In this document: piece by piece, positions 42,726 to 57,436 of the stretch
How positions within the stretch are numbered: the stretch's first letter is position 1
Layout of the letters: each line of letters opens with the position of its first letter
From: Streptomyces sp. NBC_01353
GTDB lineage: Bacteria; Actinomycetota; Actinomycetes; Streptomycetales; Streptomycetaceae
Direction: 5' to 3'
Assembly (NCBI RefSeq): GCF_036237275.1
Contig: NZ_CP108352.1
Location: 6,386,001-6,450,000, forward strand
DNA: 64,000 nucleotides
Position numbers and translations under genes: made by a program
The notes under the pieces: model-generated
Told to the model about the DNA's origin: nothing
The model's database searches: none
What the model saw: only the letters and a program-made list of their open reading frames with translations

Positions 42726-43736
42726 TCATGGACGGCCGTGAGGGCGTGTCGGGCCGGTCGCGACCGCGAGCACCCGCTCGCGGCACCAGGAGGGGCTGCC
42801 CCAGGCGTCCCGGAGGGGCCGGGCCTTGCGGAGCCAGAGGGAGAGGTCGAGTTCCTCGGTGTAGCCGATGGCGCCGTGCAGCTGCAGGGCGGTCGCGGCC
42901 GCCGCGTACGCGGCCTCCCCGGCGGCCACCTTGGCCGCCGCGAGATCGCCGTCCTCGAAGGTGAGCGCTGCTCCGAACAGCAGCGGGCGGGCGAACTCCA
43001 GGCCGATCAGAGTGTTCCCGAGGCGGTGCTTGACCGCCTGGAAGGAGGCGATCGCCGCGCCGAACTGGGTGCGCTGCTTCGCGTACGCCACCGTACGGTC
43101 CAGGAGCGCGAGCCCCACGCCGAGCGACTGCGCGGCCGTCGCGAGCAGCGCCCAGCGCCGGGCCTGCCGGGCCGCCGCGACCACGCCGGGGCCGGCCGCG
43201 AGGAGCTCGCCGCCGGGTGCGGGCCGCGCGAGCCGTCGTACGGGGTCGGCGGAGATACGGAGCTCCCCGTGGCCGCGCGCGATCCGTAGCTCGTCACCGG
43301 CGACGACGAGGACCAGATCGGCGGCGTCCGGGTCCAGGACGAGCCCGTCCTGCGCGAGCACCAGCGTCGCCACCGTCCCGCCCGCGACGAGCCCCGGCAG
43401 GAGCCGCTTCGCCGGGCCCGGCTCGCCCCGTTCGGCCAGCTCCGCGAGCAGGGCCGTCGCCGCGACCGTCTCGACCAGCGGGCCCGGCACCGCGTGGCGG
43501 CCCGACTCCACGAAGGCGTGGGCGAGTTCGACGGGGAGCGGGCCCACGCCCTCGTACGCTTCGGGCGCCGCGAGCCCGAAGACGCCCGCCTCCCCGAGCC
43601 GCCTCCACACGGCGCGCCCCGGTCCGGGGTCGCCCGCGGCCCAGGCCCGTATCGCGGTGGGCGTGTCCGCGGCGGAGAGCATCGCGTCCAGGGAACGGGC
43701 GAAGTCCCGCTGCTCGTCGGTCGGCAGGAAACGCAT
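42726..43736 (-). CDS. Acyl-CoA dehydrogenase, short type (FadE32/FadE33-like)
   Basis: A 336-residue acyl-CoA dehydrogenase shorter than the classical 380-400 residues, like the partner subunits of alpha2beta2 steroid dehydrogenases. It has the FAD-contact YAKQRTQFGAAIASFQAVKH and LQLHGAIGYTEELDL. ATG 43736 overlaps the stop of the upstream dehydrogenase (TGATG), so the two are coupled and probably form a heteromer. In the HIP pathway this class oxidises the open-ring CoA thioesters. Assignment rests on length, pairing and context. Confidence 0.87.
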   Translation of the reverse strand: MRFLPTDEQRDFARSLDAMLSAADTPTAIRAWAAGDPGPGRAVWRRLGEAGVFGLAAPEAYEGVGPLPVELAHAFVESGRHAVPGPLVETVAATALLAELAERGEPGPAKRLLPGLVAGGTVATLVLAQDGLVLDPDAADLVLVVAGDELRIARGHGELRISADPVRRLARPAPGGELLAAGPGVVAAARQARRWALLATAAQSLGVGLALLDRTVAYAKQRTQFGAAIASFQAVKHRLGNTLIGLEFARPLLFGAALTFEDGDLAAAKVAAGEAAYAAAATALQLHGAIGYTEELDLSLWLRKARPLRDAWGSPSWCRERVLAVATGPTRPHGRP

Positions 43737-44920
43737 CAGCGGCGGCCCTTCGGGAGGCCGAGCAGCCGCTCGGCGATGATGTCGCGCTGGATCTCGTTGG
43801 TGCCGGCGTAGATCGGGCCCGCGAGCGAGAAGACATGCCCCTCGGCCCACTCGGTGTCGGACAGTTCGCCCTCCGCGCCGAGGAGATCGAGCGCCGTCTC
43901 GTGCAGCGCGATGTCGTACTCCGACCAGAACACCTTGTTCAGGCTCGACTCCGCCCCGATCTCCCCCACTCTCGGCTCCGCTCGAGCGGGGGCGCCCCCA
44001 GCCCCCGACGCGAAGCGCGACGCGCCGCCCGCCGTGAAGAGCTGGTACGCCCGTGCCCCGATCACCGCGTCCGCGACCCGGTCCCGAAGCGCGGTGTCCC
44101 CGGTCTCCCCGTGCGTGCGCCACAGCCGTACGAGCCGGTCCGCGGCGGCCAGGAAGCGGCCGGGGGAGCGGAGCATGAGTCCGCGCTCGTTGCCCGTGGT
44201 GGACATCGCGATCCGCCAGCCTTGGCCCGGCTCGCCGATCACGTCCTCGTCGGGCACGAACACCTCGTCGAGGAAGAGCTCGGCGAAGGCCGGCTTCCCG
44301 TCGAGGCGTCCGATCGGCCGGACGGTCACACCCGGCGCCCGCAGGTCGAACATCAGATACGTCAGCCCCCGGTGCGGCCTCTCGGGGTCCCCCGGGTCGG
44401 TGCGGAAGATGCCGAAGGCCCGGTCGGCGAAGGCCGCCCGCGAGGACCAGGTCTTCTGCCCGGCCAGCAGCCAGCCGCCCTCGGTCCGTACCGCCCGCGA
44501 GGTCAGCGAGGCGAGGTCCGAGCCGGACTCGGGCTCGGACCAGGCCTGCGCCCACACGACCTCGCCGGTCGCCATCGACGGCAGCACCCGGGCCCGCTGC
44601 TCCTCCGTGGCGTGGTCGAAGAGGGTGGGCGCGAGGAGGTTGATGCCGTTCTGGGAGACCCGGCCCGGCGCCCCCGCCGCGTAGTACTCCTCCTCGAAGA
44701 TCAGCCACCGGAAGATGTCGGCGTCCCGGCCGCCGTACCGCCCCGGCCAGGACACCACCGACCAGCGGTCGGAGGCCAGCTCCGCCTCCCAGAGGCGATG
44801 CGCGGCGAAGCCCTCCGCGGTTTCCAGGGACGGCAGCGGCTCCTCCGGCACATGGGCGCGCAGCCACTCCCGGGCCTCCGCCCGGAAGACGTCCTCATCG
44901 GCGCTGTACGACAGGTCCAT
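43736..44920 (-). CDS. Acyl-CoA dehydrogenase (FadE31-like)
   Basis: A 394-residue enzyme beginning MDLSYSADEDVFRAEAREWL. The WAQAWSEPESGSDLASL and GQKTWSSRAAFAD motifs form the FAD and substrate site, and IYAGTNEIQRDIIAERLLG ends the protein. ATG 44920 has GGAAGGAG about 6 bp upstream. Residues ~307-320 (GAGGAPARAEPRVGE) look like an in-frame insertion of the dispersed palindromic element. A KstR2-like operator lies at 44947-44960 in the shared divergent promoter. Confidence 0.92.
   Translation of the reverse strand: MDLSYSADEDVFRAEAREWLRAHVPEEPLPSLETAEGFAAHRLWEAELASDRWSVVSWPGRYGGRDADIFRWLIFEEEYYAAGAPGRVSQNGINLLAPTLFDHATEEQRARVLPSMATGEVVWAQAWSEPESGSDLASLTSRAVRTEGGWLLAGQKTWSSRAAFADRAFGIFRTDPGDPERPHRGLTYLMFDLRAPGVTVRPIGRLDGKPAFAELFLDEVFVPDEDVIGEPGQGWRIAMSTTGNERGLMLRSPGRFLAAADRLVRLWRTHGETGDTALRDRVADAVIGARAYQLFTAGGASRFASGAGGAPARAEPRVGEIGAESSLNKVFWSEYDIALHETALDLLGAEGELSDTEWAEGHVFSLAGPIYAGTNEIQRDIIAERLLGLPKGRR
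43961..44001. repeat. Dispersed palindromic element, copy e (inside a CDS)
   Basis: CTCCCCCACTCTCGGCTCCG followed by a CGAGCGGGGGCGCCCCCA arm. It is a diverged copy lying within the FadE31-like coding sequence and translated as a Gly/Ala/Pro/Arg loop. Confidence 0.5.
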
Positions 44921-44946
44921 CGGAGCTCCTTCCTCCAACCTTCCCT

Positions 44947-44960
44947 AACAAGTGTTTGGT
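44947..44960. promoter_or_regulatory. KstR2-like operator 1
   Basis: AACAAGTGTTTGGT fits the KstR2 consensus AnCAAGnnCTTGnT at all but one fixed position. It is centred in the 56-bp gap between the divergent fadE31-like and fadE30-like genes. Longer symmetry: CCTAACAA...TTGGTAGG. Confidence 0.72.
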
Positions 44961-44976
44961 AGGTTAACGTACGGCC

Positions 44977-46113
44977 ATGAGCAGCGTCGAGGAGTTCCGC
45001 GCGGAGATACGGGACTGGCTACAGGCCCACCTCAGTGGCGAGTTCGCCCCTTTGAAGGGCCGCGGCGGACCGGGCCGGGAGCACGAGGCGTTCGCCGAAC
45101 GCCTCGCCTGGGAACGACACTTGGCGACCCACGGCTGGACCTGCGTCGGCTGGCCGAAGGAGTACGGCGGCCGCGGCGCGAGCATCGAGGAGCAGATCGC
45201 CTTCCACGAGGAGTACGCCCTCGCCGACGCCCCCGCCCGCGTCAACCACATCGGCGAACAGCTCCTCGGCCCCACCCTCATCGCCCACGGCACCGAGGAG
45301 CAGAAGGCCCGCTTCCTGCCCCCGATCCGCGCCGTCGAGGAGCTCTGGTGCCAGGGGTACAGCGAACCCGGCGCCGGCTCCGACCTCGCCGCCGTCCGCA
45401 CCCGCGCCACCCGCGACGGGGACGCCTGGGTCGTCGACGGCCAGAAGATCTGGACCTCGCTCGCCCACGAGTCCCAGTGGTGCTTCGTCGTCGCCCGGAC
45501 CGAGCCGGGGTCGAAGCGCCACGCCGGACTCTCGTACCTCCTCGTCCCCATGGACCAGCCCGGCGTCGAGGTCCGGCCGATCGTCCAGCTCACCGGCACC
45601 AGCGAGTTCAACGAGGTCTTCTTCGACGGCGCCCGCACCGACGCCGCGAACGTCGTCGGCGAGCCCGGCGACGGCTGGCGGATCGCGATGGCCACCCTCG
45701 GCTATGAACGCGGCGTCTCCACCCTCGGCCAACAGGTCGGATTCCGCCGCGAGTTGGAGGGCCTCATCGGCCTCGCCCGGCGCAACGGGGCCCTCGCGGA
45801 CCCGCTCGTCCGCGACCGGCTCGTCCGGGCGTGGACCGGGCTCCAGGCCATGCGGGCGAACGCCCTGCGCGGCACGGAACCCTCCATGGCCAAGCTGTAC
45901 TGGTCCCACTGGCACCGCGACCTCGGCGAACTCGCCATGGACATCTGCGGCGCCGCCTCCACGGTCGTCGCCGCCGAGCCGTACGAACTCGACGAGTGGC
46001 AGCGGCTGTTCCTCTTCTCCCGCGCCGACACCATCTACGCCGGATCCAGCGAGATCCAGCGCAACATCATCGCCGAGCGGGTGCTCGGCCTCCCGAAGGA
46101 GCCGCGCCCATGA
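44977..46113 (+). CDS. fadE30: Acyl-CoA dehydrogenase (FadE30-like)
   Basis: A 378-residue enzyme with GWPKEYGGRGAS in the N-terminal domain, CQGYSEPGAGSDLAAVRTRA and GQKIWTSLAHES at the FAD/substrate site, and IYAGSSEIQRNIIAERVLG at the end. Length and position directly before an SDR, a TetR and a thiolase match fadE30-ipdF-kstR2-fadA6 of mycobacteria. There FadE30 introduces the first double bond into HIP-CoA. It overlaps the SDR gene by ATGA. Symbol assigned by synteny. Confidence 0.9.
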   Translation: MSSVEEFRAEIRDWLQAHLSGEFAPLKGRGGPGREHEAFAERLAWERHLATHGWTCVGWPKEYGGRGASIEEQIAFHEEYALADAPARVNHIGEQLLGPTLIAHGTEEQKARFLPPIRAVEELWCQGYSEPGAGSDLAAVRTRATRDGDAWVVDGQKIWTSLAHESQWCFVVARTEPGSKRHAGLSYLLVPMDQPGVEVRPIVQLTGTSEFNEVFFDGARTDAANVVGEPGDGWRIAMATLGYERGVSTLGQQVGFRRELEGLIGLARRNGALADPLVRDRLVRAWTGLQAMRANALRGTEPSMAKLYWSHWHRDLGELAMDICGAASTVVAAEPYELDEWQRLFLFSRADTIYAGSSEIQRNIIAERVLGLPKEPRP

Positions 46114-46904
46114 CCCCGCCCGCCACCCCGCCCGCGTACGTCCCCGGCCACGGCCTGCTCGCCGGCCGTACCGCCGTCATCACCGCCGCCGCCGGAGCCG
46201 GCATAGGCGGCGCCACCGCCCGCCGCTTCCTGGAGGAGGGCGCCAGGATCCTGATCAGCGACGCCCACGCCCGCCGCCTCAAGGAGACCGAGGCCGCCCT
46301 CGCCGCCGACTTCGGCGCGGACCGGATCGACTCCCTGCCCTGCGACGTCACCGACGAGACCCAGGTCCAGCAGCTCATCGACACCGCCGTACGCCTCCAC
46401 GGCGGCCTGGACGCCGTCGTCAACAACGCCGGGCTCGGCGGCACCGCCCAGCTCGTCGACATGACCGACGAGCAGTGGACCCGCGTCCTCGACGTCACCC
46501 TGAACGGCACCTTCCGCTGCACCCGCGCCGCCCTGCGCCACTACAAGGACGCCGACGCCGGCGGGGTGATCGTCAACAACGCCTCCGTCGTCGGCTGGCG
46601 CGCCCAGGCAGGCCAGGCCCACTACGCCGCCGCCAAGGCCGGCGTCATGGCGCTCACCCGCTGCGCCGCCGTCGAGGCGGCCGCGTACGGGGTCCGCGTC
46701 AACGCCGTCTCCCCGTCCCTGGCCATGCACCCGCACCTGGTCAAGGTCACCTCGGCCGAGCTGCTCGCCGAACTCACCGAACGCGAGGCCTTCGGGCGGT
46801 ACGCCGAACCCTGGGAGATCGCCAACGTCATCGTCTTCCTCACCAGCGGCTACTCCTCCTACATGACCGGCGAGACCGTCTCGGTCAGCAGCCAGCACGC
46901 GTAG
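46110..46904 (+). CDS. ipdF: SDR family oxidoreductase (IpdF-like)
   Basis: A 264-residue short-chain dehydrogenase. The glycine-rich cofactor loop TAAAGAGIGGATA, VNNAGLGG, the catalytic Ser in NNASVVG and the Tyr-Lys pair in YAAAKAG are present. IpdF acts on the 5-oxo/5-hydroxy group of HIP-CoA intermediates. The 264-residue length and the place between fadE30 and the TetR gene agree with it. The start overlaps the FadE30 stop (ATGA). Confidence 0.88.
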   Translation: MTPPATPPAYVPGHGLLAGRTAVITAAAGAGIGGATARRFLEEGARILISDAHARRLKETEAALAADFGADRIDSLPCDVTDETQVQQLIDTAVRLHGGLDAVVNNAGLGGTAQLVDMTDEQWTRVLDVTLNGTFRCTRAALRHYKDADAGGVIVNNASVVGWRAQAGQAHYAAAKAGVMALTRCAAVEAAAYGVRVNAVSPSLAMHPHLVKVTSAELLAELTEREAFGRYAEPWEIANVIVFLTSGYSSYMTGETVSVSSQHA

Positions 46905-46919
46905 GACCAGAATGGACGT

Positions 46920-47540
46920 GTGCCGAACACTGCCAGCAAGAAGAAGACCCCGGTGACCGCCTCGCCCGAGCGGCGCCGAGAACTCCTGGACACCGCCGCC
47001 GAGGTGTTCGCCGCCCAGGGGTACAACGCCACGACCGTACGCAAGATCGCCGACGCCGCCGGAATGCTCGCCGGCAGCCTCTACTACCACTTCGATTCCA
47101 AGGAATCGATGCTCGACGAGATCCTCTCCACCTTCCTGACCGAGCTGTGGGAGGGCTACGACGCCGTCCTCGCCGCCGACCTCGGGCCCAGGGAGACCAT
47201 CGAGGCACTCGTCACCGAGTCCTTCCGCGAGATCGACCGGCACCGCGCCGCCGTCGCGATCTACCAGAAGGAGTCCCGGCACCTCAGCTCCCAGCCGCGC
47301 TTCCACTACCTCTCGGACTCGCAGGTGAAATTCGAGAAGGCGTGGCTCGGCACGCTGGAGCGCGGGGTCGAGGCCCGGGTCTTCCGCGCCGACCTCGACA
47401 TCCGGCTCACCTACCGCTTCGTGCGCGACACCGTCTGGGTCGCCGCGTCCTGGTACCGCCCGGGCGGCCAGCACAGCCCGGAGGAGATCGCCCGCCAGTA
47501 CCTGTCGATGGTCCTGGACGGTATCGCCGTACGTACATAG
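46920..47540 (+). CDS. kstR2: TetR family regulator (KstR2-like)
   Basis: A 206-residue TetR-type repressor. The DNA-binding helix-turn-helix spans TVRKIADAAGMLAGSLYYHF, with the FDSKESMLDEIL motif typical of KstR2. The C-terminal ligand domain is all helical. Mycobacterial KstR2 represses the C/D-ring genes and is released by HIP-CoA. The gene lies between ipdF and fadA6 as in that group, and two matching operators are found at the two divergent promoters of this island. GTG start, 15 bp after the SDR. Confidence 0.85.
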   Translation: MPNTASKKKTPVTASPERRRELLDTAAEVFAAQGYNATTVRKIADAAGMLAGSLYYHFDSKESMLDEILSTFLTELWEGYDAVLAADLGPRETIEALVTESFREIDRHRAAVAIYQKESRHLSSQPRFHYLSDSQVKFEKAWLGTLERGVEARVFRADLDIRLTYRFVRDTVWVAASWYRPGGQHSPEEIARQYLSMVLDGIAVRT

Positions 47541-47558
47541 ACGTCTGGAGGAGTTGTC

Positions 47559-48716
47559 ATGGCCGAGGCCTACATCGTCGAAGCGGTCCGCACCCCGGTG
47601 GGCCGCCGCGAGGGAGGTCTGGCCTCCGTCCACCCGGCGGACCTCGGCGCCCATGTCCTCAAGGCCCTCGTCTCGCGATCGGGCGTCGACCCGGCCGCCG
47701 TCGAGGACGTGGTCTTCGGCTGCCTCGACACCGTGGGCCCGCAGGCCGGCGACATCGCCCGTACGGCCTGGCTGGCGGCCGGCCTCCCCGAGGAGGTCCC
47801 CGGCGTCACGATCGACCGCCAGTGCGGCTCGTCCCAGCAGGCCGTGCACTTCGCCGCGCAGGGCGTCCTCTCCGGCACCCAGGACCTCGTCGTCGCGGGC
47901 GGCACCCAGAACATGTCCATGATCCCCATCGCCTTCGCCTCCCGGCAGGCCGCCGAACCGCTCGGCCTGACCGAGGGCCCCTACGCCGGCTCCGAGGGCT
48001 GGCGCGCCCGGTACGGCGACGCGCCCGTGAACCAGTTCCACGGCGCCGAGCTGATCGCCAAGAAGTGGGGGATCACCCGCCGTGACCAGGAGGAATTCGC
48101 CCTCCGCTCCCATGAGCGGGCCCTGCGCGCGATCGACGAGGGCCGCTTCGAGAGGGAGACCGTGACCTACGGGGACGTGACCGTCGACGAGGGCCCGCGC
48201 CCGGACACCACCCTGGAGAAGATGGCCGGCCTCAAGCCGGTCGTCGAGGGCGGCACCATCACCGCGGCCTGCTCCTCCCAGGTCTCCGACGGCGCCGCGG
48301 CGATGCTCCTGGCGAGCGAGCGGGCCGTACGGGAACACGGCCTCACCCCGCGCGCCCGCATCCACCACCTCTCCGTCCGCGGCGAGGACCCGATCCGGAT
48401 GCTCTCCGCCCCCATACCGGCGACCGCGTACGCCCTGAAGAAGACCGGCATGACCATCGACGACATGGACCTCGTCGAGATCAACGAGGCCTTCGCCCCC
48501 GTCGTCCTGGCCTGGCTGAAGGAGACCGGCGCGGACCCCGCACGGGTGAACGTCAACGGCGGCGCGATCGCCCTCGGCCACCCGCTGGGCGCTACCGGCG
48601 TGAAGCTGATGACCACCCTCCTCCACGAACTGGAGCGCACCGGCGGCCGGTTCGGCCTCCAGACGATGTGCGAGGGCGGGGGCCAGGCCAACGTGACGAT
48701 CATCGAGCGGCTCTGA
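47559..48716 (+). CDS. fadA6: Acetyl-CoA acetyltransferase / thiolase (FadA6-like)
   Basis: A 385-residue thiolase. The nucleophilic Cys is in [14 protein letters not shown] (about residue 90), followed by [15 protein letters not shown] with the active His and CEGGGQANV with the second Cys. FadA6 releases acetyl-CoA from an opened-ring HIP intermediate. ATG has a GGAGG ribosome binding site 6 bp upstream. It is the last gene of the fadE30 operon and is followed by a stem-loop terminator. Confidence 0.9.
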
Positions 48717-48744
48717 CCTCCTCGCCGTCCGGTGTGATGCTCGT

Positions 48745-48774
48745 CGCCGCCTCGCCCGAAAGGTCGGGGCGGCG
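48745..48774 (+). terminator. Terminator after the thiolase gene
   Basis: CGCCGCCTCG pairs with CGGGGCGGCG (one G-U) around a 10-nt loop. A TAAGGT element that could be the -10 box of the csp promoter follows at 48778. Confidence 0.6.
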
Positions 48775-48818
48775 TGCTAAGGTCTCAGTGTTGCTAGTTG
48801 GTACCCATGAACTTTATG

Positions 48819-48858
48819 TGCGCCTGACGGGAATGTTCCTCAGGCGCAATTTTGTTTT
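48819..48858 (+). promoter_or_regulatory. Terminator-like hairpin in the csp 5' leader
   Basis: A perfect 9-bp stem TGCGCCTGA/TCAGGCGCA with a 12-nt loop, followed by ATTTTGTTTT, about 44 bp before the csp start codon. It looks like an intrinsic terminator inside the leader, so possibly an attenuator or RNA thermosensor. A six-codon frame (MNFMCA) at 48807-48827 overlaps the first arm. Confidence 0.6.
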
Positions 48859-48901
48859 CCGGACTCTCCGGGATGGGACCCTTACCTATTCAGGAGAAAA
48901 C

Positions 48902-49105
48902 ATGGCCACCGGAACTGTGAAGTGGTTCAACGCCGAAAAGGGCTTCGGCTTCATCGAGCAGGACGGCGGCGGCGCCGACGTCTTCGCCCACTACTCCAAC
49001 ATCGCGACCTCCGGCTTCCGTGAGCTTCAGGAAGGCCAGAAGGTCACCTTCGACGTCACGCAGGGCCAGAAGGGCCCGCAGGCGGAGAACATCCTCCCGG
49101 CCTAA
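48902..49105 (+). CDS. Cold-shock protein (CspA family)
   Basis: A 67-residue single cold-shock domain. RNP1 is KGFGFIEQ and RNP2 is DVFAHYS, so it binds single-stranded RNA/DNA and acts as an RNA chaperone. [11 protein letters not shown] is the classical start. A GGAG ribosome binding site is found just before the ATG. The leader contains a terminator-like hairpin, and the gene ends in a 16-bp stem terminator. A longer upstream frame is not part of it. Confidence 0.95.
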
Positions 49106-49125
49106 TTGCCGGACGCGTTTCTCGC

Positions 49126-49162
49126 AGCCGGGGCCCGCACCGCGCAGGTGCGGGTCCCGGCT
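49126..49162 (+). terminator. Terminator after csp
   Basis: A 16-bp stem (AGCCGGGGCCCGCACC with one G-U pair) and loop GCGCA. Confidence 0.8.
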
Positions 49163-49194
49163 CGTGCTGTGCTCAGGCCAGGAAGGCTTTTCCC

Positions 49195-50832
49195 ATGACC
49201 CGCTCCGAAAGGCGGCCCCGCCGGGCCGCGGAATCCAGTTCCGGAAACCCGTCCGGAAACACCCGCCGCGGCTCCGCCGCCCCCAGGGGCAAGGCCAAGG
49301 GAGCCGGCCGCCGCGGACCGGCCACGCCTCCGCCGCCGCGTGAGTTCACACTGCCCGAGACGCTGACGCCCGCGCTCCCTTCCGTCGAGTCCTTCGACGC
49401 CCTCGACATGCCCGCGGCGCTGGTCAAGACGCTGAACGCCCAGGGCGTGACCGAGCCGTTCCCGATCCAGGGCGCCACCCTGCCGAACTCGCTCGCCGGC
49501 CGGGACATCCTCGGTCGCGGCCGCACCGGCTCCGGCAAGACCCTCGCCTTCGGCCTCGCCCTGCTCGCCCGCACCGCGGGCCGCCGCGCCGAGCCCAAGG
49601 CCCCGCTCGCCCTGGTCCTCGTGCCCACCCGTGAGCTCGCCCAGCAGGTGACCGACGCCCTCGCGCCGTACGCCACCTCCGTGCAGCTGCGGCTCGCCAC
49701 CGTCGTCGGCGGCCTGTCGATCACCAAGCAGGCGAACTCGCTGCGCCGTGGCGCCGAGGTCGTCGTCGCCACGCCCGGACGACTCAAGGACCTCATCGAG
49801 CGCGGCGACTGCCGACTCGACCAGGTCGCGATCACGGTCCTGGACGAAGCCGACCAGATGGCCGACATGGGCTTCATGCCGCAGGTCGTGGCGCTGCTCA
49901 AGCAGGTCGAGCCGGACGGCCAGCGGATGCTGTTCTCGGCGACGCTCGACCAGAACATCGACCGGCTCGTGAAGATGTTCCTCGACGACCCGGTCGTGCA
50001 CTCCGTCGACCCCTCCGCCGGCGCGGTCACGACGATGGAGCACCACCTGCTCTACATCGCCGACGAGACCGACAAGAAGGCCGTCACGATGAAGATCGCG
50101 GCCCGCGACGGCCGCACGATCCTCTTCCTGGACACCAAGCGGTCCGTGGACCGGCTGGTCAAGCGGCTCCTCGCCAACGGCGTACGGGCCTCCGGACTGC
50201 ACGGCGGCCGCTCGCAGCCGCAGCGCAACCGCACCCTGGACCAGTTCAAGAACGGCCAGGTCACCGCGCTCGTGGCGACCAACGTGGCGGCCCGCGGCAT
50301 CCACGTCGACGACCTCGACCTCGTCGTGAACGTCGACCCGCCGATCGACCACAAGGACTATCTGCACCGCGGCGGCCGCACGGCGCGCGCCGGCGAGTCC
50401 GGCAGTGTCGTCACCCTCGTGCTGCCCGAGGAGAAGCGGGACATGAGCCGGCTGATGTCGAACGCCGGCATCAGCCCCCGTACGGCACAGATCAAGTCCA
50501 GCGACGAAGAGCTGACGCGGCTCACCGGCGCCCGGGAGCCCTCCGGCATACCGATCGTCATCGAGGTCCCGCAGCCGACCCAGCCCGCAGCCGCCCGCAA
50601 CGGCGGTCAGCGCTCGCGCCGCGGTGGCGGCGGTGGCGGCCGTACCCGCTCCCAGGCCAACGGCCGTACGGGCACGGGCGGTTCGACCGCACGCACCGGT
50701 GGCGGAGGTTCGACCCCGCGTACGGGTACGAGCGGTTCCGCCATCCGTACGGGCACGGGCGGTTCCGCCGCCCGTACCCGCAGCGGTGGCGGTGCCGGCG
50801 GCAGGAGCCGCCGGGGCGGCGGCGCCGCCTAG
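49195..50832 (+). CDS. DEAD/DEAH-box RNA helicase
   Basis: A 545-residue ATP-dependent RNA helicase. A basic tail (1-50) precedes the Q motif (PFPIQGATLP), Walker A GRGRTGSGKT (107-116), PTRELAQQV, DEAD box VLDEADQMADMGF and FSATLD. The second RecA domain carries LHGGRSQPQRNRTLDQF and RGGRTARAG. Residues ~440-545 form a Gly/Arg/Thr-rich RNA-binding tail. With the cold-shock gene it makes a typical RNA-remodelling pair. Its stop overlaps the opposite gene's stop as CTAG. Confidence 0.95.
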   Translation: MTRSERRPRRAAESSSGNPSGNTRRGSAAPRGKAKGAGRRGPATPPPPREFTLPETLTPALPSVESFDALDMPAALVKTLNAQGVTEPFPIQGATLPNSLAGRDILGRGRTGSGKTLAFGLALLARTAGRRAEPKAPLALVLVPTRELAQQVTDALAPYATSVQLRLATVVGGLSITKQANSLRRGAEVVVATPGRLKDLIERGDCRLDQVAITVLDEADQMADMGFMPQVVALLKQVEPDGQRMLFSATLDQNIDRLVKMFLDDPVVHSVDPSAGAVTTMEHHLLYIADETDKKAVTMKIAARDGRTILFLDTKRSVDRLVKRLLANGVRASGLHGGRSQPQRNRTLDQFKNGQVTALVATNVAARGIHVDDLDLVVNVDPPIDHKDYLHRGGRTARAGESGSVVTLVLPEEKRDMSRLMSNAGISPRTAQIKSSDEELTRLTGAREPSGIPIVIEVPQPTQPAAARNGGQRSRRGGGGGGRTRSQANGRTGTGGSTARTGGGGSTPRTGTSGSAIRTGTGGSAARTRSGGGAGGRSRRGGGAA

Positions 50833-51725
50833 TCGACGAGCCGGTCCTGGAGCCGCGACAGCGTGCGCAGCTCCAGGCCCAGCCCATCGGTGAGGTACCG
50901 GAAGAGACTGCCGTACCCGGTCCTCACCTCGTCGAGCGCGGTGTTCAGATACTCGGTCCGCACCTCCTGGAGGGGGATGATCAGGTCCGGGTTCTGCATG
51001 AGCCCGCCCTGCTTCAGCCCCTCCCGCACCTTCGCGTCGTACGCGGCCCGGAAGGTGTTGGAGGCCATGTAGTCGCCGACGGCCGTCGCCTCCGGCACGC
51101 CCAGGGCCGTCAGCAGGAGATAACTCGTCCAGCCCGTACGGTCCTTGCCCGACGTGCAGTGGTACAGCGAGGGTGTCGAGCCGAGGCCGGCCAGCTCGCG
51201 CAGCGTGAGGCCGAGCTGGGCGCGGTTCGCCGCACTGGTGACGAACGAGCGGTACACCTCGTTCATGAACGCGGCCGCCCGCCCACCGCCGAGCATCTGC
51301 TCCTGGCGCACCGGATCGCGGGAGCCGATCGCCGCGAGCAGCTGCCCGAACAGGCCGTTGTCGGTGACCGGCCGCGACACCGCGACGACCCCGGCCGGGA
51401 GCCGGTCCGCGCCGTCGTACTGGACCTCCAGCGGGATCCGGAAGTCGACGGCCCGCCCCAGGCGCAGCCCGGCGAGGGTCGTCACATCGGAGTCGGTGAG
51501 CTTGCTCAGGGCATCGGCCCGGTACACCAGGCCGTGCCGCACCCGGCCGCCGGTGTAGGTGGGGTAACCGCCCAGATCGCGGACGTTGACCGCGCCCTGG
51601 AGCGGGATGTGGCGAACGGCCGTGGCGCGGGGGCGACTTCGGGTCGCCGCGACGGCCGGGGCGGTCGCCGCCGCGAACGCTGCGGCGGTGGCGGTGCTCA
51701 GCAGTGCGCGTCTCGACAGAGGCAT
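50829..51725 (-). CDS. Secreted tyrosine-protein phosphatase family protein
   Basis: A 298-residue protein with an N-terminal signal of twin-arginine type (SRRALLSTATAAAFAAA, cleavage near AVA-A at ~27). The catalytic domain opens with NVRDLGGYPT and carries the phosphatase P-loop HCTSGKDRTG, so it belongs to the Tyr/Ser phosphatase group related to the MptpB type (Y_phosphatase3). ATG 51725 places the signal correctly. Convergent with the helicase, sharing a CTAG overlap. It has no obvious role in the flanking catabolic genes. Confidence 0.9.
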   Translation of the reverse strand: MPLSRRALLSTATAAAFAAATAPAVAATRSRPRATAVRHIPLQGAVNVRDLGGYPTYTGGRVRHGLVYRADALSKLTDSDVTTLAGLRLGRAVDFRIPLEVQYDGADRLPAGVVAVSRPVTDNGLFGQLLAAIGSRDPVRQEQMLGGGRAAAFMNEVYRSFVTSAANRAQLGLTLRELAGLGSTPSLYHCTSGKDRTGWTSYLLLTALGVPEATAVGDYMASNTFRAAYDAKVREGLKQGGLMQNPDLIIPLQEVRTEYLNTALDEVRTGYGSLFRYLTDGLGLELRTLSRLQDRLVD

Positions 51726-51754
51726 GACTGAACTCCCGTGAGGGGATGAGGGTT

Positions 51755-52804
51755 TCACCCTGGTGTTGGCAGGGTGCGGAGCACGTGCTCGGCCTCGGAT
51801 ATGACCCGCAGGACGAGTTCCTCGCAGCTCGGGAGGTCCTCGATCAGCCCTGCGACCTGTCCGGACGCCATGACACCGAGGTCGGTGCGGCCCTCGACCA
51901 TGGACGCTTTGAGGAGCATGGGGGTGTTCGCGGCGAGCAGGACCTGGCTCCACGACAGGTCCTTGCCGTGTTTCATCGCGAGACCGTCGCGGATCATCCG
52001 CGACCACGACAGCCCCGAGATCCGGCGGAAGCCGGCCGCGCGGCGGACGGCCTGCGCCAACGCCCGTACCCGGCCCGCCCGTTCGAGGGCGGCGACCATC
52101 TCCGTACGGAGCATCCGGTGCGGGAGTCCGTCGACGGCGGTCGTCACCGTCACGTCCTTGACCGTCGCGGCCAGGTACCTCGCCTTGACGGCGTCGGGGA
52201 CGGTCGAGTCGGAGGTGAGCAGGAAACGGGTGCCCATCGCGATGCCCGCCGCGCCGTAGGAGAGTGCCGCGACCAGGCCCCGGCCGTCGTGGAAGCCACC
52301 GGCCGCGATCACCGGGATGTCGACCGCGTCGACGACCTGCGGCAGCAGGACGGTCGTGGCCACCTCGCCGGTGTGCCCGCCGCCCTCGCCGCCCTGCACG
52401 ATCACCGCGTCCGCGCCCCAGGCCGCGACCTTCTCGGCGTGCCTCCGGGCCCCGATGGACGGGACCACGACCACGCCCGCGTCCTTCAGCTCGGCGATCA
52501 GGTCCCGGGAGGGGGCGAGGGCGAAGGAGGCGACCCGTACACCCTCGTCGACGATGATCCGCACCCGCTCGCGGGCGTCGCCCGCGTCCGCGCGGAGATT
52601 GACCCCGAACGGCCGGTCCGTACGCCTCTTCACCTCACGGACCGCGGCGCGCAGCTCCTCGACGGTCATCGTCGCCGAGGCGAGGATGCCCAGGGCGCCG
52701 GCATCGGCGGAGGCCGAGACCAGCCGCGCCCCGGCCACCCAGCCCATGCCGGTCTGGACGATCGGGTACCGGACGCCGGTCAGCTTGGTGAGCGCCGTTT
52801 CCAT
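51755..52804 (-). CDS. ipdC: Nitronate monooxygenase family flavoprotein (IpdC-like)
   Basis: A 349-residue FMN barrel of the nitronate monooxygenase/2-nitropropane dioxygenase family. YPIVQTGMGWVAGARLV at the start, GVNLRADAG, and the FMN-phosphate region IVQGGEGGGHTG are diagnostic. In the HIP pathway IpdC is the flavin reductase-type enzyme encoded after ipdAB; this gene has the same place and length. Its ATG overlaps the ipdB-like stop (TGATG), so it is the last gene of the echA20 operon. Confidence 0.87.
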   Translation of the reverse strand: METALTKLTGVRYPIVQTGMGWVAGARLVSASADAGALGILASATMTVEELRAAVREVKRRTDRPFGVNLRADAGDARERVRIIVDEGVRVASFALAPSRDLIAELKDAGVVVVPSIGARRHAEKVAAWGADAVIVQGGEGGGHTGEVATTVLLPQVVDAVDIPVIAAGGFHDGRGLVAALSYGAAGIAMGTRFLLTSDSTVPDAVKARYLAATVKDVTVTTAVDGLPHRMLRTEMVAALERAGRVRALAQAVRRAAGFRRISGLSWSRMIRDGLAMKHGKDLSWSQVLLAANTPMLLKASMVEGRTDLGVMASGQVAGLIEDLPSCEELVLRVISEAEHVLRTLPTPG

Positions 52805-53541
52805 CAGACCCGGACCTCCCGGTCCCGCAGCGCCTTCGGGTCGATCACCTCGCGGATCATCCGCAGCTCCTCGGCGGTCGGCTCGCGGGTGTACGGCACG
52901 TCGTCCCCGATCACCAGGTCGAAGCCGGTGGCCTGCCGGACCTGGTCCACGGTGACGCCCGGGTGGACCGAGGCGAGCCGCATCGAGCGGTCGGGGGTGT
53001 CGAAGTCGAAGACGCCGAGGTCGGAGACGACCCGGGGGATCCGGTGGAAACGGTCGGCCCCGGCTGCGACCGCGCGGTCGTATCCGACGCCGCTGACCAT
53101 GTCCACACGCTCGACGAAGACCCGGGGCGAGTGCTTCGGGATCCAGTAACTGACCGGATTGTTCAGGGTGTTGACCGGAGCGCCTCGGACCCCGAGGAGC
53201 TGGCGGGCGGGCCGGGACCAGTCGCCGATGCAGGAGATGTTCTGGTTGCCGTGCCGGTCGATCTGGCTCGCGCCCATCATGACGTGCCGCTTCCCGCCCG
53301 TGACCATCGTGAGATGGCGGCGGTACGGCAACCAGCCCTCCACCTGCCCGTCGAGGCCGACGAGCATCGCCTCGCCGTCGGTCAGCAGCAGATCGGGGGA
53401 GAAGGAGCGTTTGGCGAGCCGGGCGCCGAAGGAGGAGACCGGGGCCATGGCGGCGGCGAGGACCTCGCCGTTGTCGCGCCAGGCCTCGGCGCAGGCGACG
53501 ACGCAGTACTCGGCGCGGGTGACGGTCGTGGTCGTGGTCAC
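52804..53541 (-). CDS. ipdB: CoA-transferase family protein, beta subunit (IpdB-like)
   Basis: A 245-residue class I CoA-transferase beta-type subunit. EYCVVACAEAWRDNGEVLA, the GGKRHVMMGASQIDRHGN segment and DFDTPDRSMRLAS fit IpdB. The IpdAB heteromer hydrolyses ring C of the steroid remnant rather than transferring CoA. The GTG start overlaps the alpha-subunit stop (GTGA), and the stop overlaps ipdC. In-frame sequence upstream of the GTG overlaps ipdA and is rejected. Confidence 0.89.
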   Translation of the reverse strand: MTTTTTVTRAEYCVVACAEAWRDNGEVLAAAMAPVSSFGARLAKRSFSPDLLLTDGEAMLVGLDGQVEGWLPYRRHLTMVTGGKRHVMMGASQIDRHGNQNISCIGDWSRPARQLLGVRGAPVNTLNNPVSYWIPKHSPRVFVERVDMVSGVGYDRAVAAGADRFHRIPRVVSDLGVFDFDTPDRSMRLASVHPGVTVDQVRQATGFDLVIGDDVPYTREPTAEELRMIREVIDPKALRDREVRV

Positions 53542-54383
53542 TGCTGCTCCTCGTGCCAGGCGCGTACGGCCTGCTGGTAGTCGTCCTCGCTCTTCCCGGA
53601 GAGGAACCGCTCGGCGAACTCGGGCCAGGGTGTGGTGGCGTACAGCTTCTGGAAGGGCTCGTCGCGGGTGTAGCTGGGGGCGCAGGAGGTGAAGTGCGCG
53701 CCGTTCGGTGCCTCGACGACGCCGGTGACGCTGTGCCGGCCGACGAGCAGGGACTGCGGGGAGGTGTCGCTCCCGAAGCCGTCGACGATCTCCTCGCAGG
53801 AGATGTAGGCGGTGTCGGCGGCCTCGCAGAAGAGATCGTCGAAGTACGGGTCGGGGCCCAGGTACTGGCCGTTGCCGAGCCGGTCGGCGCGGTTGAGGTG
53901 GACGAAGGCGGCGTCCATGCGCAGGGCGGGCACGGCGACGAACGTCTCGCCGTCCTCGTACGGCGAGGTGACCGTGCGCAGCTCGGGGTTGACCCTCATC
54001 ACGTCCGAGCCGAGACCGGCCCGCACGGGCAGGAACGGCAGGCGGTTGGCGGCGGCGTGCAGGCCCCACATGAACATGGCCTCGTCGAGCTCTGTCATGG
54101 CGAAGTCGCCGCGCTCGCGGGCGGCCCGGAAGTGAGGTTCGAGGGGGATGGAGTCCAGGGTGGTGAAGGCGGCGACGAGCTTGCGGATCCGGCCGGCGGC
54201 GGCGAGCAGGCCCACGTCGGGGCCGCCGTAGGAGACCACAGTGAGATCGCTGATCTCGGACCGGAGCAGCGCTCTGATCAGGGCCATCGGCTTGCGGCGC
54301 GAGCCCCAGCCGCCGATGCCGAGCGTCATGCCGCTGCGCAGTCGGCCCACCACCTCGTCGGCGGTCATCGTCTTGTCGGTCAT
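53538..54383 (-). CDS. ipdA: CoA-transferase family protein, alpha subunit (IpdA-like)
   Basis: A 281-residue alpha-type subunit. MTADEVVGRLRSGMTLGIGG begins the family's nucleotide-like loop with GIGGWGSRRKP, and VVSYGGPDVGLLAAAG follows. The C-terminal HFTSCAPSYTRDE and YATTPWPEFAERFL segments resemble mycobacterial IpdA. ATG 54383 overlaps the enoyl-CoA hydratase stop by ATGA. Together with IpdB it would open ring C of the bicyclic intermediate. Confidence 0.89.
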   Translation of the reverse strand: MTDKTMTADEVVGRLRSGMTLGIGGWGSRRKPMALIRALLRSEISDLTVVSYGGPDVGLLAAAGRIRKLVAAFTTLDSIPLEPHFRAARERGDFAMTELDEAMFMWGLHAAANRLPFLPVRAGLGSDVMRVNPELRTVTSPYEDGETFVAVPALRMDAAFVHLNRADRLGNGQYLGPDPYFDDLFCEAADTAYISCEEIVDGFGSDTSPQSLLVGRHSVTGVVEAPNGAHFTSCAPSYTRDEPFQKLYATTPWPEFAERFLSGKSEDDYQQAVRAWHEEQQ

Positions 54384-55150
54384 CGGGCGTCCTCCTTGGC
54401 CTGGTCCGTGCCGAAGGTGTCGCGGACGCGGTCGGCGACCCCGCTGAGGTTGGCCTCGAAGGTGAAGCCCTGCTCGAAGCGGTAGCTGCGGCGCACGTCC
54501 ACGGGGTCGATCCCGTTGATGGCGGCCTTGGCGAGGCGGATCAGATACCCGTCCTTGCGTGCGATCTCGGCCGCCAGCTCCACCGCTGCGTCCAGGAGTT
54601 CCTCGCGCGGCACGACCTTCCAGACCGAGCCGTGGGCGTGCAGCTCGGCGGCGGTGGCGGTGCGGGAGGTGTAGTACAGCGCGCGCATCAGATGCTGCGG
54701 CACGAGCCGGGCGAGATGCGTGGCGGCGCCGAGCGCGCCCCGGTCCAGCTCGGGCAGCCCGAAGGTGGCGTCCTCGGAGGCGACGATCGCGTCCGCGTTG
54801 CCGACGAGCCCGATCCCGCCGCCCAGGCAGAAGCCGCCGACGGCCGCGACGACCGGCACCTCGCACTCGTAGACCGCCGAGAAGGCCTCCGCGCAGCCGT
54901 GGTTGGCGCCGATCAGTGCCGTGTGCCGCCCGGTCCCGTGATCGCGCTGCATCTCCTTGATGTCGACGCCCGCGTTGAAGCCGCGGCCTGCGGCGGCCAG
55001 CACCACGCAGCGGACCTCGGGGTCCCGGCCCGCCGCGCGGACGGCGTCGGCGAGGTCGTACCAGCCCTGTACGGGGAGGGCGTTGACGGGTGGGAAGTCG
55101 ACGGTGACAAGTGCGATGCCCTTGCCCGGGCTTGAGGTGGAGACACCCAT
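54380..55150 (-). CDS. echA20: Enoyl-CoA hydratase/crotonase family (EchA20-like)
   Basis: A 256-residue crotonase-fold enzyme. The two oxyanion-hole segments are FNAGVDIKEM and GGFCLGGGIGLVG, and FGLPELDRGALG carries the active-site acid. EchA20 hydrolyses ring D of HICHEA-CoA in mycobacteria. ATG 55150 is preferred to a longer frame that would cross the operator at 55172-55185. First gene of echA20-ipdA-ipdB-ipdC and divergent from two SDR genes. Confidence 0.89.
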   Translation of the reverse strand: MGVSTSSPGKGIALVTVDFPPVNALPVQGWYDLADAVRAAGRDPEVRCVVLAAAGRGFNAGVDIKEMQRDHGTGRHTALIGANHGCAEAFSAVYECEVPVVAAVGGFCLGGGIGLVGNADAIVASEDATFGLPELDRGALGAATHLARLVPQHLMRALYYTSRTATAAELHAHGSVWKVVPREELLDAAVELAAEIARKDGYLIRLAKAAINGIDPVDVRRSYRFEQGFTFEANLSGVADRVRDTFGTDQAKEDAR

Positions 55151-55171
55151 GAGCGGATCAGCTACCTTTCC

Positions 55172-55185
55172 ACCAAACATTTGTT
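55172..55185. promoter_or_regulatory. KstR2-like operator 2
   Basis: ACCAAACATTTGTT, the reverse complement of AACAAATGTTTGGT. It matches operator 1 (AACAAGTGTTTGGT) at 13 of 14 positions. An 11-bp inverted repeat GCTACCTTTCC/GGAAAGGTAGC (55161-55171 and 55203-55213) flanks it. Confidence 0.72.
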
Positions 55186-55218
55186 AGGTGACTGCTTGGT
55201 GAGGAAAGGTAGCAGCCG

Positions 55219-55983
55219 ATGGAGCTGGACGGGAGGGTTGCCGTCGTCACCGGCGGCACGCGCGGGGTCGGCGCGGGCATCGCCCGGGCATTCCTCAGGG
55301 CAGGGGCCCGGGTGGTCGTCTGTGCGCGCAGGCCACCGGACGAGCCCGTGGAGGACGGGGGCCGCAAGGCCGTCTTCGTCCCCCTCGACCTGCGGGAACC
55401 CGCGGAGGTCGTCGCCTTCTTCGCGGGCGTCGGCGAGCGGTACGGACGGCTGGACGCCCTGGTCAACAACGCCGGCGGAACGCCGTACCGGCTCCTCGGC
55501 GAGGGCGATGCCGAACGGCACGCGCGGGTCGTGGAGTTGAACCTCATCGCCCCGCTGACCGTCTCCCTCGCCGCGTACGAACTGCTGCGGGCATCCCGGG
55601 GCGCGATCGTCATGGTCGGCAGCGTCAGCGGGACCCGGCCCTCGCCCGGCGCGGCCGCGTACGGCGCCGCGAAGGCGGGCCTGGAGAACCTGGCCCGCTC
55701 GATGGCGGTGGAATGGGCCCCCGAGGTGCGGGTGAACTCCCTCGTCCTCGGCATGGTCCGCACCGAGCTGTCCCACCTCCACTACGGCGACGAGGACGGC
55801 ATCGCCGCCGTCGGGGCGACGGTGCCGCTCGGCCGGCTCGCCGAGCCCGCGGACGTGGGGGAGGCGGCGGTGTTCCTCGCCTCCGACCGGGCCGCGTACG
55901 TCTCGGGGGCCTCGCTGCTGGTGCACGGGGGCGGCGAGCGCCCCGCGTTTCTGGATGCCGCAACTGTCAACAAGGAGAGCTGA
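55219..55983 (+). CDS. SDR family oxidoreductase (Rv3549c-like)
   Basis: A 254-residue short-chain dehydrogenase with TGGTRGVGAGIA, VNNAGG, a Ser in VGSVSG and YGAAKAG. Length and position facing echA20 match Rv3549c of M. tuberculosis, a KstR2-regulated dehydrogenase of the HIP pathway. ATG has AGGAAAGG about 8 bp upstream. It lies one base before the second SDR gene, and the KstR2-like operator upstream controls both directions. Confidence 0.88.
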   Translation: MELDGRVAVVTGGTRGVGAGIARAFLRAGARVVVCARRPPDEPVEDGGRKAVFVPLDLREPAEVVAFFAGVGERYGRLDALVNNAGGTPYRLLGEGDAERHARVVELNLIAPLTVSLAAYELLRASRGAIVMVGSVSGTRPSPGAAAYGAAKAGLENLARSMAVEWAPEVRVNSLVLGMVRTELSHLHYGDEDGIAAVGATVPLGRLAEPADVGEAAVFLASDRAAYVSGASLLVHGGGERPAFLDAATVNKES

Positions 55984-55984
55984 G

Positions 55985-56866
55985 ATGGGTCTGTGCGAGG
56001 GTCGGGTCGTGATCGTGACGGGCGCGGGGCGGGGGCTTGGGCGGGCGCACGCTCGCGCCTTCGCTGCCGAGGGGGCGAAGGTCGTCGTCAACGACCTGGG
56101 GGTGGGGCTCGACGGCTCCGCCGGGTCCGGCTCGCCAGCCGTGCAGGTGGTGGAGGAGATCCGCGCAGCGGGCGGCGAGGCCGTCGAGCACGGCGGCGAC
56201 ATCGCCACGGAGGAGGGTGCGGCCTCGCTGGTCGCGGCGGCCCTGGACTCCTTCGGACGGCTCGACACCCTGGTCAACAACGCGGGGTTCCTGCGGGACC
56301 GGATGCTCGTCAATCTCGGCGAGGACGACTGGGACGCGGTGATGCGCGTCCATGTGAAGGGCCACTTCCTGCCGTTGCGGCACGCGGCCGCGCACTGGCG
56401 GGCGGAGGCGAAGGCGGGGCGTGAGCCCGCGGCCCGGGTCGTCAACACCACGTCGGGCGCGGGTCTTCTGGGGAGCGTCGGGCAGGGCAACTACGCGGCG
56501 GCCAAGGCAGCCATCGTCGGCCTCACCCTGGTCGCGGCGGCGGAGATGGGCCGGTACGGGGTCCAGGTCAACGCGATCGCCCCGGCGGCCAGGACGCGGA
56601 TGACGGAGCAGGCGTTCGCCGGCCTGGAGGGCGTACCGGAGGACGTGTCGCCGCTGGTGGTCTGGCTGGGCTCGGCGGGCTCGGCGGGTGTGACCGGCCG
56701 GGTCTTCGAGGCGGAGGGCGGCCGGATCACCGTCATGGAGGGATGGCGGCCGGGCCCGACGACCGACAAGGGCGCGCGCTGGAGTCCGGCGGAGGCGGGG
56801 GAGGCGGCGCTGAAGCTCCTGGCGGAGGCGGAGGTGCCGCGGCCGGTGTACGGCTCTAGTCGGTGA
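55985..56866 (+). CDS. SDR family oxidoreductase (Rv3548c-like)
   Basis: A 293-residue SDR with TGAGRGLGRAHARAFAAEG, VVNDLGVGLDGS, NNAGF and the Tyr-Lys in GQGNYAAAKAA. The longer C-terminus and DLGVGLDGS resemble the hydroxyacyl-CoA dehydrogenase part of multifunctional enzyme type 2, as in Rv3548c (304 aa). The ATG follows AGGAGAGCTG overlapping the preceding stop. Its 3' end overlaps the convergent MarR gene by 11 bp. Confidence 0.87.
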   Translation: MGLCEGRVVIVTGAGRGLGRAHARAFAAEGAKVVVNDLGVGLDGSAGSGSPAVQVVEEIRAAGGEAVEHGGDIATEEGAASLVAAALDSFGRLDTLVNNAGFLRDRMLVNLGEDDWDAVMRVHVKGHFLPLRHAAAHWRAEAKAGREPAARVVNTTSGAGLLGSVGQGNYAAAKAAIVGLTLVAAAEMGRYGVQVNAIAPAARTRMTEQAFAGLEGVPEDVSPLVVWLGSAGSAGVTGRVFEAEGGRITVMEGWRPGPTTDKGARWSPAEAGEAALKLLAEAEVPRPVYGSSR

Positions 56867-57320
56867 GGCGCTTCGTCGCGGCGCGCTGGCGGTCGGTCGC
56901 GCCGGTCAGGAAGCGGGTGACGGTGAGGAGCTCCTCGGTCGTGAACTCCTCGTAGAGTTCGTGCACTTCGCGTGCCCAGTCGTCGAAGAGCGGGGCGAGC
57001 TCGGCCAGCTTCTCGGGCCGGGGCTCGATCAGCACCCGGCGCTTGTCCGTCGGGTGCTTCACCCGGCGCACGAATCCCTTGCGCTCCAGGCGGTCGACCA
57101 GACCCGTCACGGAGGCGGGCGCGAGACCGGAGTGCTCGGCCAGCTCCTTGGCGGTGAGCGCGCCATGGCGCTGGAGGAGGTCCAGGGTCTTGGTCTCGGT
57201 GGGGCCGAGGTCCTGCTTGGCCGCGACCGCCGTGTGGAAGGCGACGGAGGCGGCGCTGGAGTCGCGTCCGGCGACGGTGAGGGCGGCGATGACCTCGGCG
57301 CGTCGGTTCTGCTCGCTCAT
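56856..57320 (-). CDS. MarR family transcriptional regulator
   Basis: A 154-residue winged-helix regulator. LTAKELAEHSGLAPASVTGL is the recognition helix region and RVKHPTDKRRVLIEP the wing with the usual DKR motif. It is divergent from a 14-helix MFS pump, and two large TTCGTT...AACGAA palindromes lie in the 116-bp gap, so it likely represses both itself and the pump until a ligand binds. Confidence 0.92.
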   Translation of the reverse strand: MSEQNRRAEVIAALTVAGRDSSAASVAFHTAVAAKQDLGPTETKTLDLLQRHGALTAKELAEHSGLAPASVTGLVDRLERKGFVRRVKHPTDKRRVLIEPRPEKLAELAPLFDDWAREVHELYEEFTTEELLTVTRFLTGATDRQRAATKRLTD

Positions 57321-57332
57321 GGGCTCAGACTA

Positions 57333-57366: not shown

Positions 57367-57385
57367 GATCACGGGCGGGCCTGTG

Positions 57386-57424: not shown

Positions 57425-57436
57425 AAGGGGCGCGCG

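Follow-up and report, generated by a model that had tools for sequence, protein, structure and literature searches.

The genome of Streptomyces sp. NBC_01353 carries an island of twelve genes that appears to be a true KstR2 regulon, the gene set for catabolism of HIP (the steroid C/D-ring acid) in mycobacteria and rhodococci. The island occupies positions 42726-56866 of the analysed window, a 64,000-nucleotide stretch of DNA (C1:6386001-6450000 of the 8.57 Mb genome, where C1 is contig NZ_CP108352.1), and all island coordinates below are window positions. A first-pass annotation had proposed that the twelve genes match the mycobacterial regulon. This is confirmed but reframed: the genes are strongly supported by sequence comparison as intact orthologues of the mycobacterial and rhodococcal KstR2 regulon, but the island is not a whole steroid pathway. 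It is better read as a widespread stand-alone module that would depend on a FadD3-family coenzyme A (CoA) ligase encoded in trans.

The island is built from two pairs of divergent blocks. In the first, fadE32-fadE31 stands opposite fadE30-ipdF-kstR2-fadA6, and in the second ipdC-ipdB-ipdA-echA20 stands opposite two genes for short-chain dehydrogenases/reductases (SDRs). All twelve genes have open frames in this order among the window reading frames. For each predicted protein the best match is the expected gene of Nocardia farcinica, at 51-70% identity. The N. farcinica cluster was taken as three stretches from the plasmid 2 record, which is nearly without annotation, and we named its genes by their position and with the help of Table 1 in Crowe et al. 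2017 (PMC5380842). The genes are as follows, with identities to the N. farcinica counterparts:

42726-43736, minus strand: FadE32 orthologue, a short acyl-CoA dehydrogenase of 336 amino acids; 51%
43736-44938, minus strand: FadE31 orthologue, 400 amino acids; 63%
44977-46113, plus strand: FadE30 orthologue, 378 amino acids; 70%
46110-46904, plus strand: IpdF, an SDR dehydrogenase; 450 bits on NF005880 (cut-off 336); 64%
46920-47540, plus strand: KstR2, a TetR-type repressor; 2ibd at 1.5e-65, 4w97 at 1.3e-56; 52%
47559-48716, plus strand: FadA6 thiolase; 704 bits on NF005865 (cut-off 591); 66%
51755-52804, minus strand: IpdC, a FabK-like flavin enzyme; 66%
52804-53541, minus strand: IpdB, beta subunit of the ring-C hydrolase; 6co6_B at 2.8e-87; 55%
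53538-54383, minus strand: IpdA, alpha subunit of the ring-C hydrolase; 6co6_A at 5.9e-97 (alignment); 56%
54380-55180, minus strand: EchA20, ring-D hydrolase; 406 bits on NF005925 (cut-off 260); 68%
55219-55983, plus strand: SDR1, Rv3549c orthologue; 376 bits on NF005893 (cut-off 255); 59%
55955-56866, plus strand: SDR2, Rv3548c orthologue; 449.5 bits on NF005861 (cut-off 373); 64%

IpdF, FadA6, EchA20, SDR1 and SDR2 thus exceed their NCBIfam cut-offs, and IpdC scores 243 bits on the FabK model, under the cut-off of 453. Since NCBIfam gave no specific names for IpdA, IpdB or KstR2, solved structures and N. farcinica were used for these. IpdA and IpdB match the solved IpdAB enzyme of Rhodococcus RHA1 (6co6), and the best matches of KstR2 are the RHA1 protein (2ibd) and M. 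tuberculosis KstR2 (4w97), with the next match at 3.8e-19. The window KstR2 retains the stretch RDTxW, which we take to line the ligand site. Window IpdA retains the Glu that reads Ala in structure 6coj, presumably the catalytic residue. The short FadE is closer to N. farcinica FadE32 than to its FadE33 (31%) and matches the Pfam families Acyl-CoA_dh_1 and Acyl-CoA_dh_N. The match of EchA20 to NF005925 begins at residue 11, and the real start is probably about 11 codons inside the open reading frame. It is almost inconceivable that the island is a beta-oxidation cluster unrelated to KstR2 and HIP: KstR2, IpdA and IpdB match solved regulon proteins best and all twelve proteins match the N. farcinica cluster in order. 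Best matches to unrelated beta-oxidation clusters did not occur, and this candidate was ruled out. Together with the operator sites described next, these matches uphold the proposed correspondence in family and order.

Two KstR2 operators were predicted in the island, one at each divergent promoter:

44944-44960, plus strand: predicted KstR2 operator 1, CCTAACAAGTGTTTGGT, between fadE31 and fadE30
55172-55188, minus strand: predicted KstR2 operator 2, CCTAACAAATGTTTGGT, between echA20 and SDR1

The predicted operators show one and two departures from AnCAAGnnCTTGnT, the KstR2 consensus in mycobacteria given by Kendall et al. 2010 (PMC3068626), and the two promoters have CCTAACAARTGTTTGGT in common. 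The window sequence upstream of fadE30, CCTAACAAGTGTTTGGTAGGTTAACG, resembles the probe CCTAACAAAGCAAGTGCTTGGTAGGTTAGC used for M. tuberculosis Rv3560c/Rv3561 in an electrophoretic mobility shift assay (PMC3068626). Only two perfect operator copies are found in the genome, both at the island divergent promoters. With up to three mismatches 14 genome sites were detected, one of them operator 2 read backwards; the reversed control also gave 14. Unlike in mycobacteria, the operator scan detected no site of its own for kstR2 in the window.

The island is not special to this strain. In a survey of 392 Streptomyces genomes, IpdA was found in 277 at a threshold of E ≤1e-50. The match was weak in five of them (G152, G169, G240, G244 and G286; 1e-75 to 1e-81) and about 1e-104 or better in the others. 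The KshA_C model at E ≤1e-10 detected 112 genomes, which divide into 40 true KshA genomes (best E 4.2e-85 or better) and 72 with no more than about 101 bits. All 40 true KshA genomes are IpdA-positive, and 237 of the 277 IpdA-positive species are without KshA. Among named IpdA loci, the best 80 of 581 candidates are all from Streptomyces, with identities of up to 91%. The first-pass annotation had treated the island as a feature of one strain, which does not fit these counts. Since the island is common in Streptomyces but usually without KshA, the probable food of its hosts is a residual ring fragment or a similar compound, not whole steroids.

Island stretches from 40 sister species were compared. 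These were chosen from the best-scoring IpdA places (40 of the 277 IpdA-positive genomes) and are not a random sample; matches below 38-40% identity or below 40% coverage were dropped. With up to two mismatches, 38 of the 40 contain two operator sites and two contain one. All 78 sites are at divergent promoters, 40 between echA20 and SDR1 and 38 between fadE31 (or echA13) and fadE30 (or ipdF). The left block is present in 38 stretches, every one of which carries the second divergent-promoter site, and the one-site stretches (L068, L071) are those without the whole fadE left block. A shuffled-base control yielded 2 sites across the 40 stretches. Among the named loci with full flanks (n=58, the 80 less 22 shorter ones that were left out), 51 have two sites and 7 have one. 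As to gene content, FadE30 was detected in 15 of the 40 sister stretches, echA13 in 7, and fadD3 and fadE33 in none. In five islands (L080, L081, L082, L084 and L093) there is no kstR2 match in the stretch read and both operator sites are kept; their repressor may have moved elsewhere. L079 was also counted as lacking kstR2, but its gene lies in the neighbouring stretch L103.

Growth of the strain on bile acids or sterols, which the first-pass annotation considered, is not supported by the gene content. No match to KshA was found in its genome with the same KshA_C model that detects the 40 true KshA genomes. With proteins of another Streptomyces, G074, as queries, HsaC had no match and KstD had four short matches only (best 24 bits). 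This negative result concerns KshA, HsaC and KstD; the search of the genome did not extend to HsaA, HsaB, HsaD or Mce4. Of the genes proposed for a genome-wide search, fadD3 has a possible counterpart, a FadD3-family ligase; HsaC has none, and KstD only the short matches. Degradation of whole steroids by the known enzymes was rejected for this strain on the KshA, HsaC and KstD results. Whole steroids might instead be degraded through non-homologous or very divergent A/B-ring enzymes. Bergstrand et al. 2016 state this caveat for homology-based surveys (PMC4810484), and four of the relevant proteins were outside the search, but sister species show full homologues of what is missing here, which makes this explanation very improbable.

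The Streptomyces G074 has a complete steroid ring cluster around the island (L103, L079 and L102), with the left block inverted. Its flanks encode FadD3, HsaB-, HsaE-, HsaG- and HsaF-type proteins, KshA, KshB, HsaA, HsaD, HsaC and KstD. FadD3 (666 bits, cut-off 657), HsaA, HsaD and the HsaG-type acetaldehyde dehydrogenase exceed their model cut-offs. For HsaB, HsaC and KstD their own models are the best match but under the cut-off, and the HsaE-type protein matched hydratase models below their cut-offs. KshA scores 304 bits on KshA_C, and HsaF and KshB were named from position and sequence.

Complete sets such as that of G074, and the position of KshA 7-13 kb from IpdA in at least 11 genomes, could suggest that a full steroid pathway has been decaying, with loss of the ring A/B genes, fadD3, fadE33 and echA13, and that the window island is what is left of it. 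However, all frames are open, both operators are perfect, and most IpdA-positive species retain the island without KshA. The ratio of non-synonymous to synonymous substitution rates (Ka/Ks) is 0.08-0.35 for all twelve genes when compared with two chosen sister stretches (G328 and G098), which indicates that the island is not a remnant. A pseudogene remnant was rejected on these values, and the decay hypothesis as a whole is highly unlikely.

Neither fadD3 nor fadE33 was found within the island. The annotated absence of fadD3 and one fadE is thus correct for the island; elsewhere in the genome there are candidate counterparts. A second locus at C1:4.983-4.995 Mb, 1.43-1.45 Mb from the island, encodes a ligase of the FadD3 family and a FadE33-like dehydrogenase:

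C1:4993373-4994920: FadD3-family acyl-CoA ligase, over the NCBIfam FadD3-family cut-off

Streptomyces NBC_00841 has a complete cluster on a plasmid, and the FadD3 encoded there, used as query, has its one clear best match in the genome at C1:4993397-4994917 (56%, 571 bits; next match 312 bits). The second-locus ligase reaches 811 bits on the NCBIfam FadD3-family model and the NBC_00841 cluster FadD3 703, against a cut-off of 657. Likewise, the second-locus ligase is 53% identical to N. farcinica FadD3 (509 bits), against 49% (444 bits) for the NBC_00841 protein. In the FadD tree the second-locus ligases form one clade (100/100) inside the FadD3 family (100/99). The best FadE33-like gene is about 9 kb from the ligase and is 49% identical to NBC_00841 FadE33. 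Of the FadE30-33 set, FadE30, FadE31 and FadE32 are in the island, whereas for FadE33 there is only a 43% relative, at the second locus.

Besides these, the second locus encodes two thiolases, an enoyl-CoA hydratase, an amidohydrolase, a pair of luciferase-like oxidoreductases, a TetR regulator and, judged by its sequence, a DUF35-type OB-fold protein. One of the thiolases exceeds the NF005892 cut-off and is called Ltp2-like here; the name Ltp2 is our assumption. Between ligase and thiolase, a palindrome with one mismatch, CTGACGNNNCGTCAG, is present in all 16 second-locus stretches. The regulator is of the TetR_C_38 type (C1:4985245-4985892; L016 17245-17892). Twelve of the 16 second-locus stretches extend as far as its gene, and among these it is 87-99% identical. 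A site upstream of the gene differs from CTGACGNNNCGTCAG by two mismatches and is found again in the sister stretches. Compared with PDB, this regulator gave weak matches only.

The ligase and the island occur together across the genus. Of the 392 genomes, 271 have both the ligase and IpdA, 6 IpdA only, 6 the ligase only and 109 neither; four of the six ligase-only genomes are 78-86% complete. For the Ltp2-like thiolase the corresponding numbers are 265, 12, 2 and 113. In 32 chosen genomes the ligase query had a match at E ≤1e-100 in 22/22 IpdA-positive and 0/10 IpdA-negative ones, with an identity of at least 74% in 21 of the 22. The remaining genome, G195, may lack the second-locus type of ligase.

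We consider it likely that the island is a functional, stand-alone KstR2 regulon of the HIP type, which acts on a bicyclic acid from outside the cell and relies on a CoA ligase encoded in trans. This proposal starts from direct observations of gene identity, operator sites, purifying selection, co-occurrence and the lack of a KshA, HsaC or full-length KstD match; the enzyme roles are taken from work on mycolic actinobacteria (PMC5380842). KstR2 would repress both divergent promoters until a thioester resembling HIP-CoA binds. The island would operate without a steroid A/B-ring pathway in this strain, so the acid, either HIP or a bicyclic compound like it, would most likely come from other organisms and be imported ready-made. 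Two substrates named in the first-pass annotation now lead: HIP that other organisms release, and a related bicyclic terpenoid. The acid could be activated by the FadD3-family ligase 1.43 Mb away. FadE30 with a FadE33-like partner and FadA6 would oxidize the side chain, with the distant FadE33-like dehydrogenase possibly serving the pathway, and IpdF and IpdC would then convert the bicyclic CoA ester. EchA20 would open ring D and IpdAB ring C, and FadE31/FadE32 and the SDRs would complete the breakdown by beta-oxidation. According to a review, homologues of FadE30 and FadE33 act on the side chain of HIP (PMC8399759; its gene numbers were matched via PMC5380842).

Several observations weigh against this proposal. 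The FadD tree, which carries a long-branch warning, does not resolve the second-locus ligase as orthologue or paralogue of FadD3: either the second-locus ligases or the Streptomyces cluster FadD3 are candidates for orthologues of the mycolic FadD3. The second-locus dehydrogenase is 43% identical to N. farcinica FadE33, and another paralogue of the same genome reaches 42%; its presence in 4/16 second-locus stretches, cut short in three of them, is no measure of conservation. The operator scan found no KstR2 operator at the second locus, where the other palindrome is located. The co-occurrence numbers count species and not independent events, without a species tree, and the Fisher values (about 1e-81) are too strong because species are not independent. 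In the sample of KshA-positive genomes, G012 has split ligase matches and G195 reaches only 52-61% identity. Ten of the 277 ligase-positive genomes, G195 among them, have no thiolase match, so a few ligase matches are probably not of the second-locus type; some of those in thiolase-negative genomes are probably FadD3 proper or other proteins. Finally, FadE30 was not found in 25 of the 40 sister stretches, including L068 and L071 where the whole left block is gone, and the pathway may therefore differ among species. In Pseudomonas, the same review reports, loss of a FadE30/FadE33-type dehydrogenase did not abolish growth on 7-hydroxylated bile acids (PMC8399759), which suggests that species lacking FadE30 may use hydroxylated HIP or another acid.

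Some of these points fit a different substrate. It is possible, if rather unlikely, that the island serves another cyclic acid (a terpenoid or the producer's own metabolite) and not steroid-derived HIP, and that the two loci make up one genus-wide pathway with the second locus as a dedicated front end. Such a front end would comprise the FadD3-like ligase, the Ltp2-like thiolase with its DUF35-type partner, the enoyl-CoA hydratase, an IpdE2-like dehydrogenase, the amidohydrolase and the two luciferase-like oxidoreductases. The two loci co-occur, and 237/277 IpdA-positive species are without KshA. Among ten KshA-positive genomes sampled, eight clearly carry both FadD3 and the second-locus ligase. 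FadE30, the presumed HIP side-chain enzyme, is often not found, and a Mycobacterium branderi plasmid has a similar gene set beside P450s. On the other hand, orthologue-level conservation extends to KstR2 with its RDTxW stretch, to its operator and to the enzymes that cleave the rings, the two loci have different operators, and a candidate substrate is lacking. Slightly less probable is a broader version: about 7 in 10 Streptomyces species would possess a two-locus pathway, with a KstR2/IpdAB core and a separately regulated FadD3-like/Ltp2-like front end, for a widespread non-steroid bicyclic acid. The steroid C/D module would then share this non-steroid origin, and the 40 KshA-positive species would have added ring A/B genes beside it.

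Bergstrand et al. 2016 detected the steroid pathway in 2/57 Streptomyces genomes and not in the other 55 (PMC4810484), which fits the KshA count of our survey; the passages of that paper that we draw on say nothing of C/D-ring genes in the genus. An early record of HIP metabolism by a Streptomyces is Hashimoto and Hayakawa 1977, cited in PMC5380842, whose title concerns the metabolites that Streptomyces rubescens makes from HIP. At the level of titles and abstract openings, with subscription journals mostly outside this coverage, no paper was found on the genes behind this metabolism or on how widely they occur in the genus. The KstR2/HIP pathway has so far been studied largely for its role in tuberculosis. 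Set against the 2/57 steroid pathways, a lower-half steroid marker in 277/392 species, 237 of them without KshA, leaves two readings: consumption of a steroid breakdown product in soil is widespread among Streptomyces, or the pathway has an unrecognised natural substrate.

Comparison with the KstR2 regulon of Mycobacterium, Rhodococcus and Nocardia (Rv3548c-Rv3564) reveals the same divergent blocks of the twelve orthologues and, at the promoters of fadE30 and of echA20/SDR, operators of the same type. In contrast, kstR2 of the window is located inside the fadE30-ipdF-kstR2-fadA6 run without its own promoter site, the island is without fadD3, fadE33 and echA13, and KshA, HsaC and KstD are not present at the orthologue level in the strain genome. 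In N. farcinica, the SDR pair stands opposite echA20-ipdA-ipdB-ipdC, and about 20 kb off fadA6-kstR2-ipdF-fadE30 stands opposite fadD3-echA13-fadE31-fadE32-fadE33. Steroidobacter denitrificans also has clustered HIP genes and an unlinked FadD3-type ligase, but it degrades whole steroids (PMC5380842).

Two genes sit between the divergent blocks of the window island:

49195-50832, plus strand: DEAD-box RNA helicase, named from its sequence; homologue in 25/40 sister stretches
50829-51725, minus strand: tyrosine phosphatase (Y_phosphatase3), PF13350 at 2.4e-59; homologue in 19/40 sister stretches

The twelve genes are therefore not contiguous. The description of a near-complete HIP island holds for the twelve genes, but these two interrupt it, and echA13 was also not found in the window (best match echA20, 34.5%). 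The helicase is probably outside the pathway; the phosphatase gene is on the same strand as ipdC and downstream of it. The island of G074 resembles that of the window in having orthologous genes with the helicase and the phosphatase between its halves, and differs in the inverted left block and the added FadD3, HsaA-G-type, KshA, KshB and KstD genes. Directly after the window island are genes for a MarR regulator and an MFS transporter (56856-58831). This pair was matched in only 4/40 sister stretches and is probably unrelated to the island.

Related genes occur elsewhere, several of them on plasmids. The M. branderi plasmid pJCM12687 (L261 2620-24707) resembles the second locus, with 26-52% identity for matched proteins. 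The resemblance covers a FadD3-family ligase, thiolases, OB-fold proteins, LLM oxidoreductases and dehydrogenases like FadE30 and IpdE2. The plasmid also carries two P450s; no match to IpdA, IpdB or KstR2 was found in the stretch read. Plasmid loci of Rhodococcus AQ5-07 and RDE2 contain single pathway genes out of context. In Nonomuraea gerenzanensis (L005 2164-21467) the HIP genes are reordered and an Ltp2-like thiolase (43%) adjoins fadE30. In Streptomyces sp. NBC_00841 the island (L002 10720-30198) is on a linear plasmid of 1.5 Mb, which is typed as mobilizable, and has fadD3, fadE33, echA13 and an MFS transporter added; this transporter may carry the acid.

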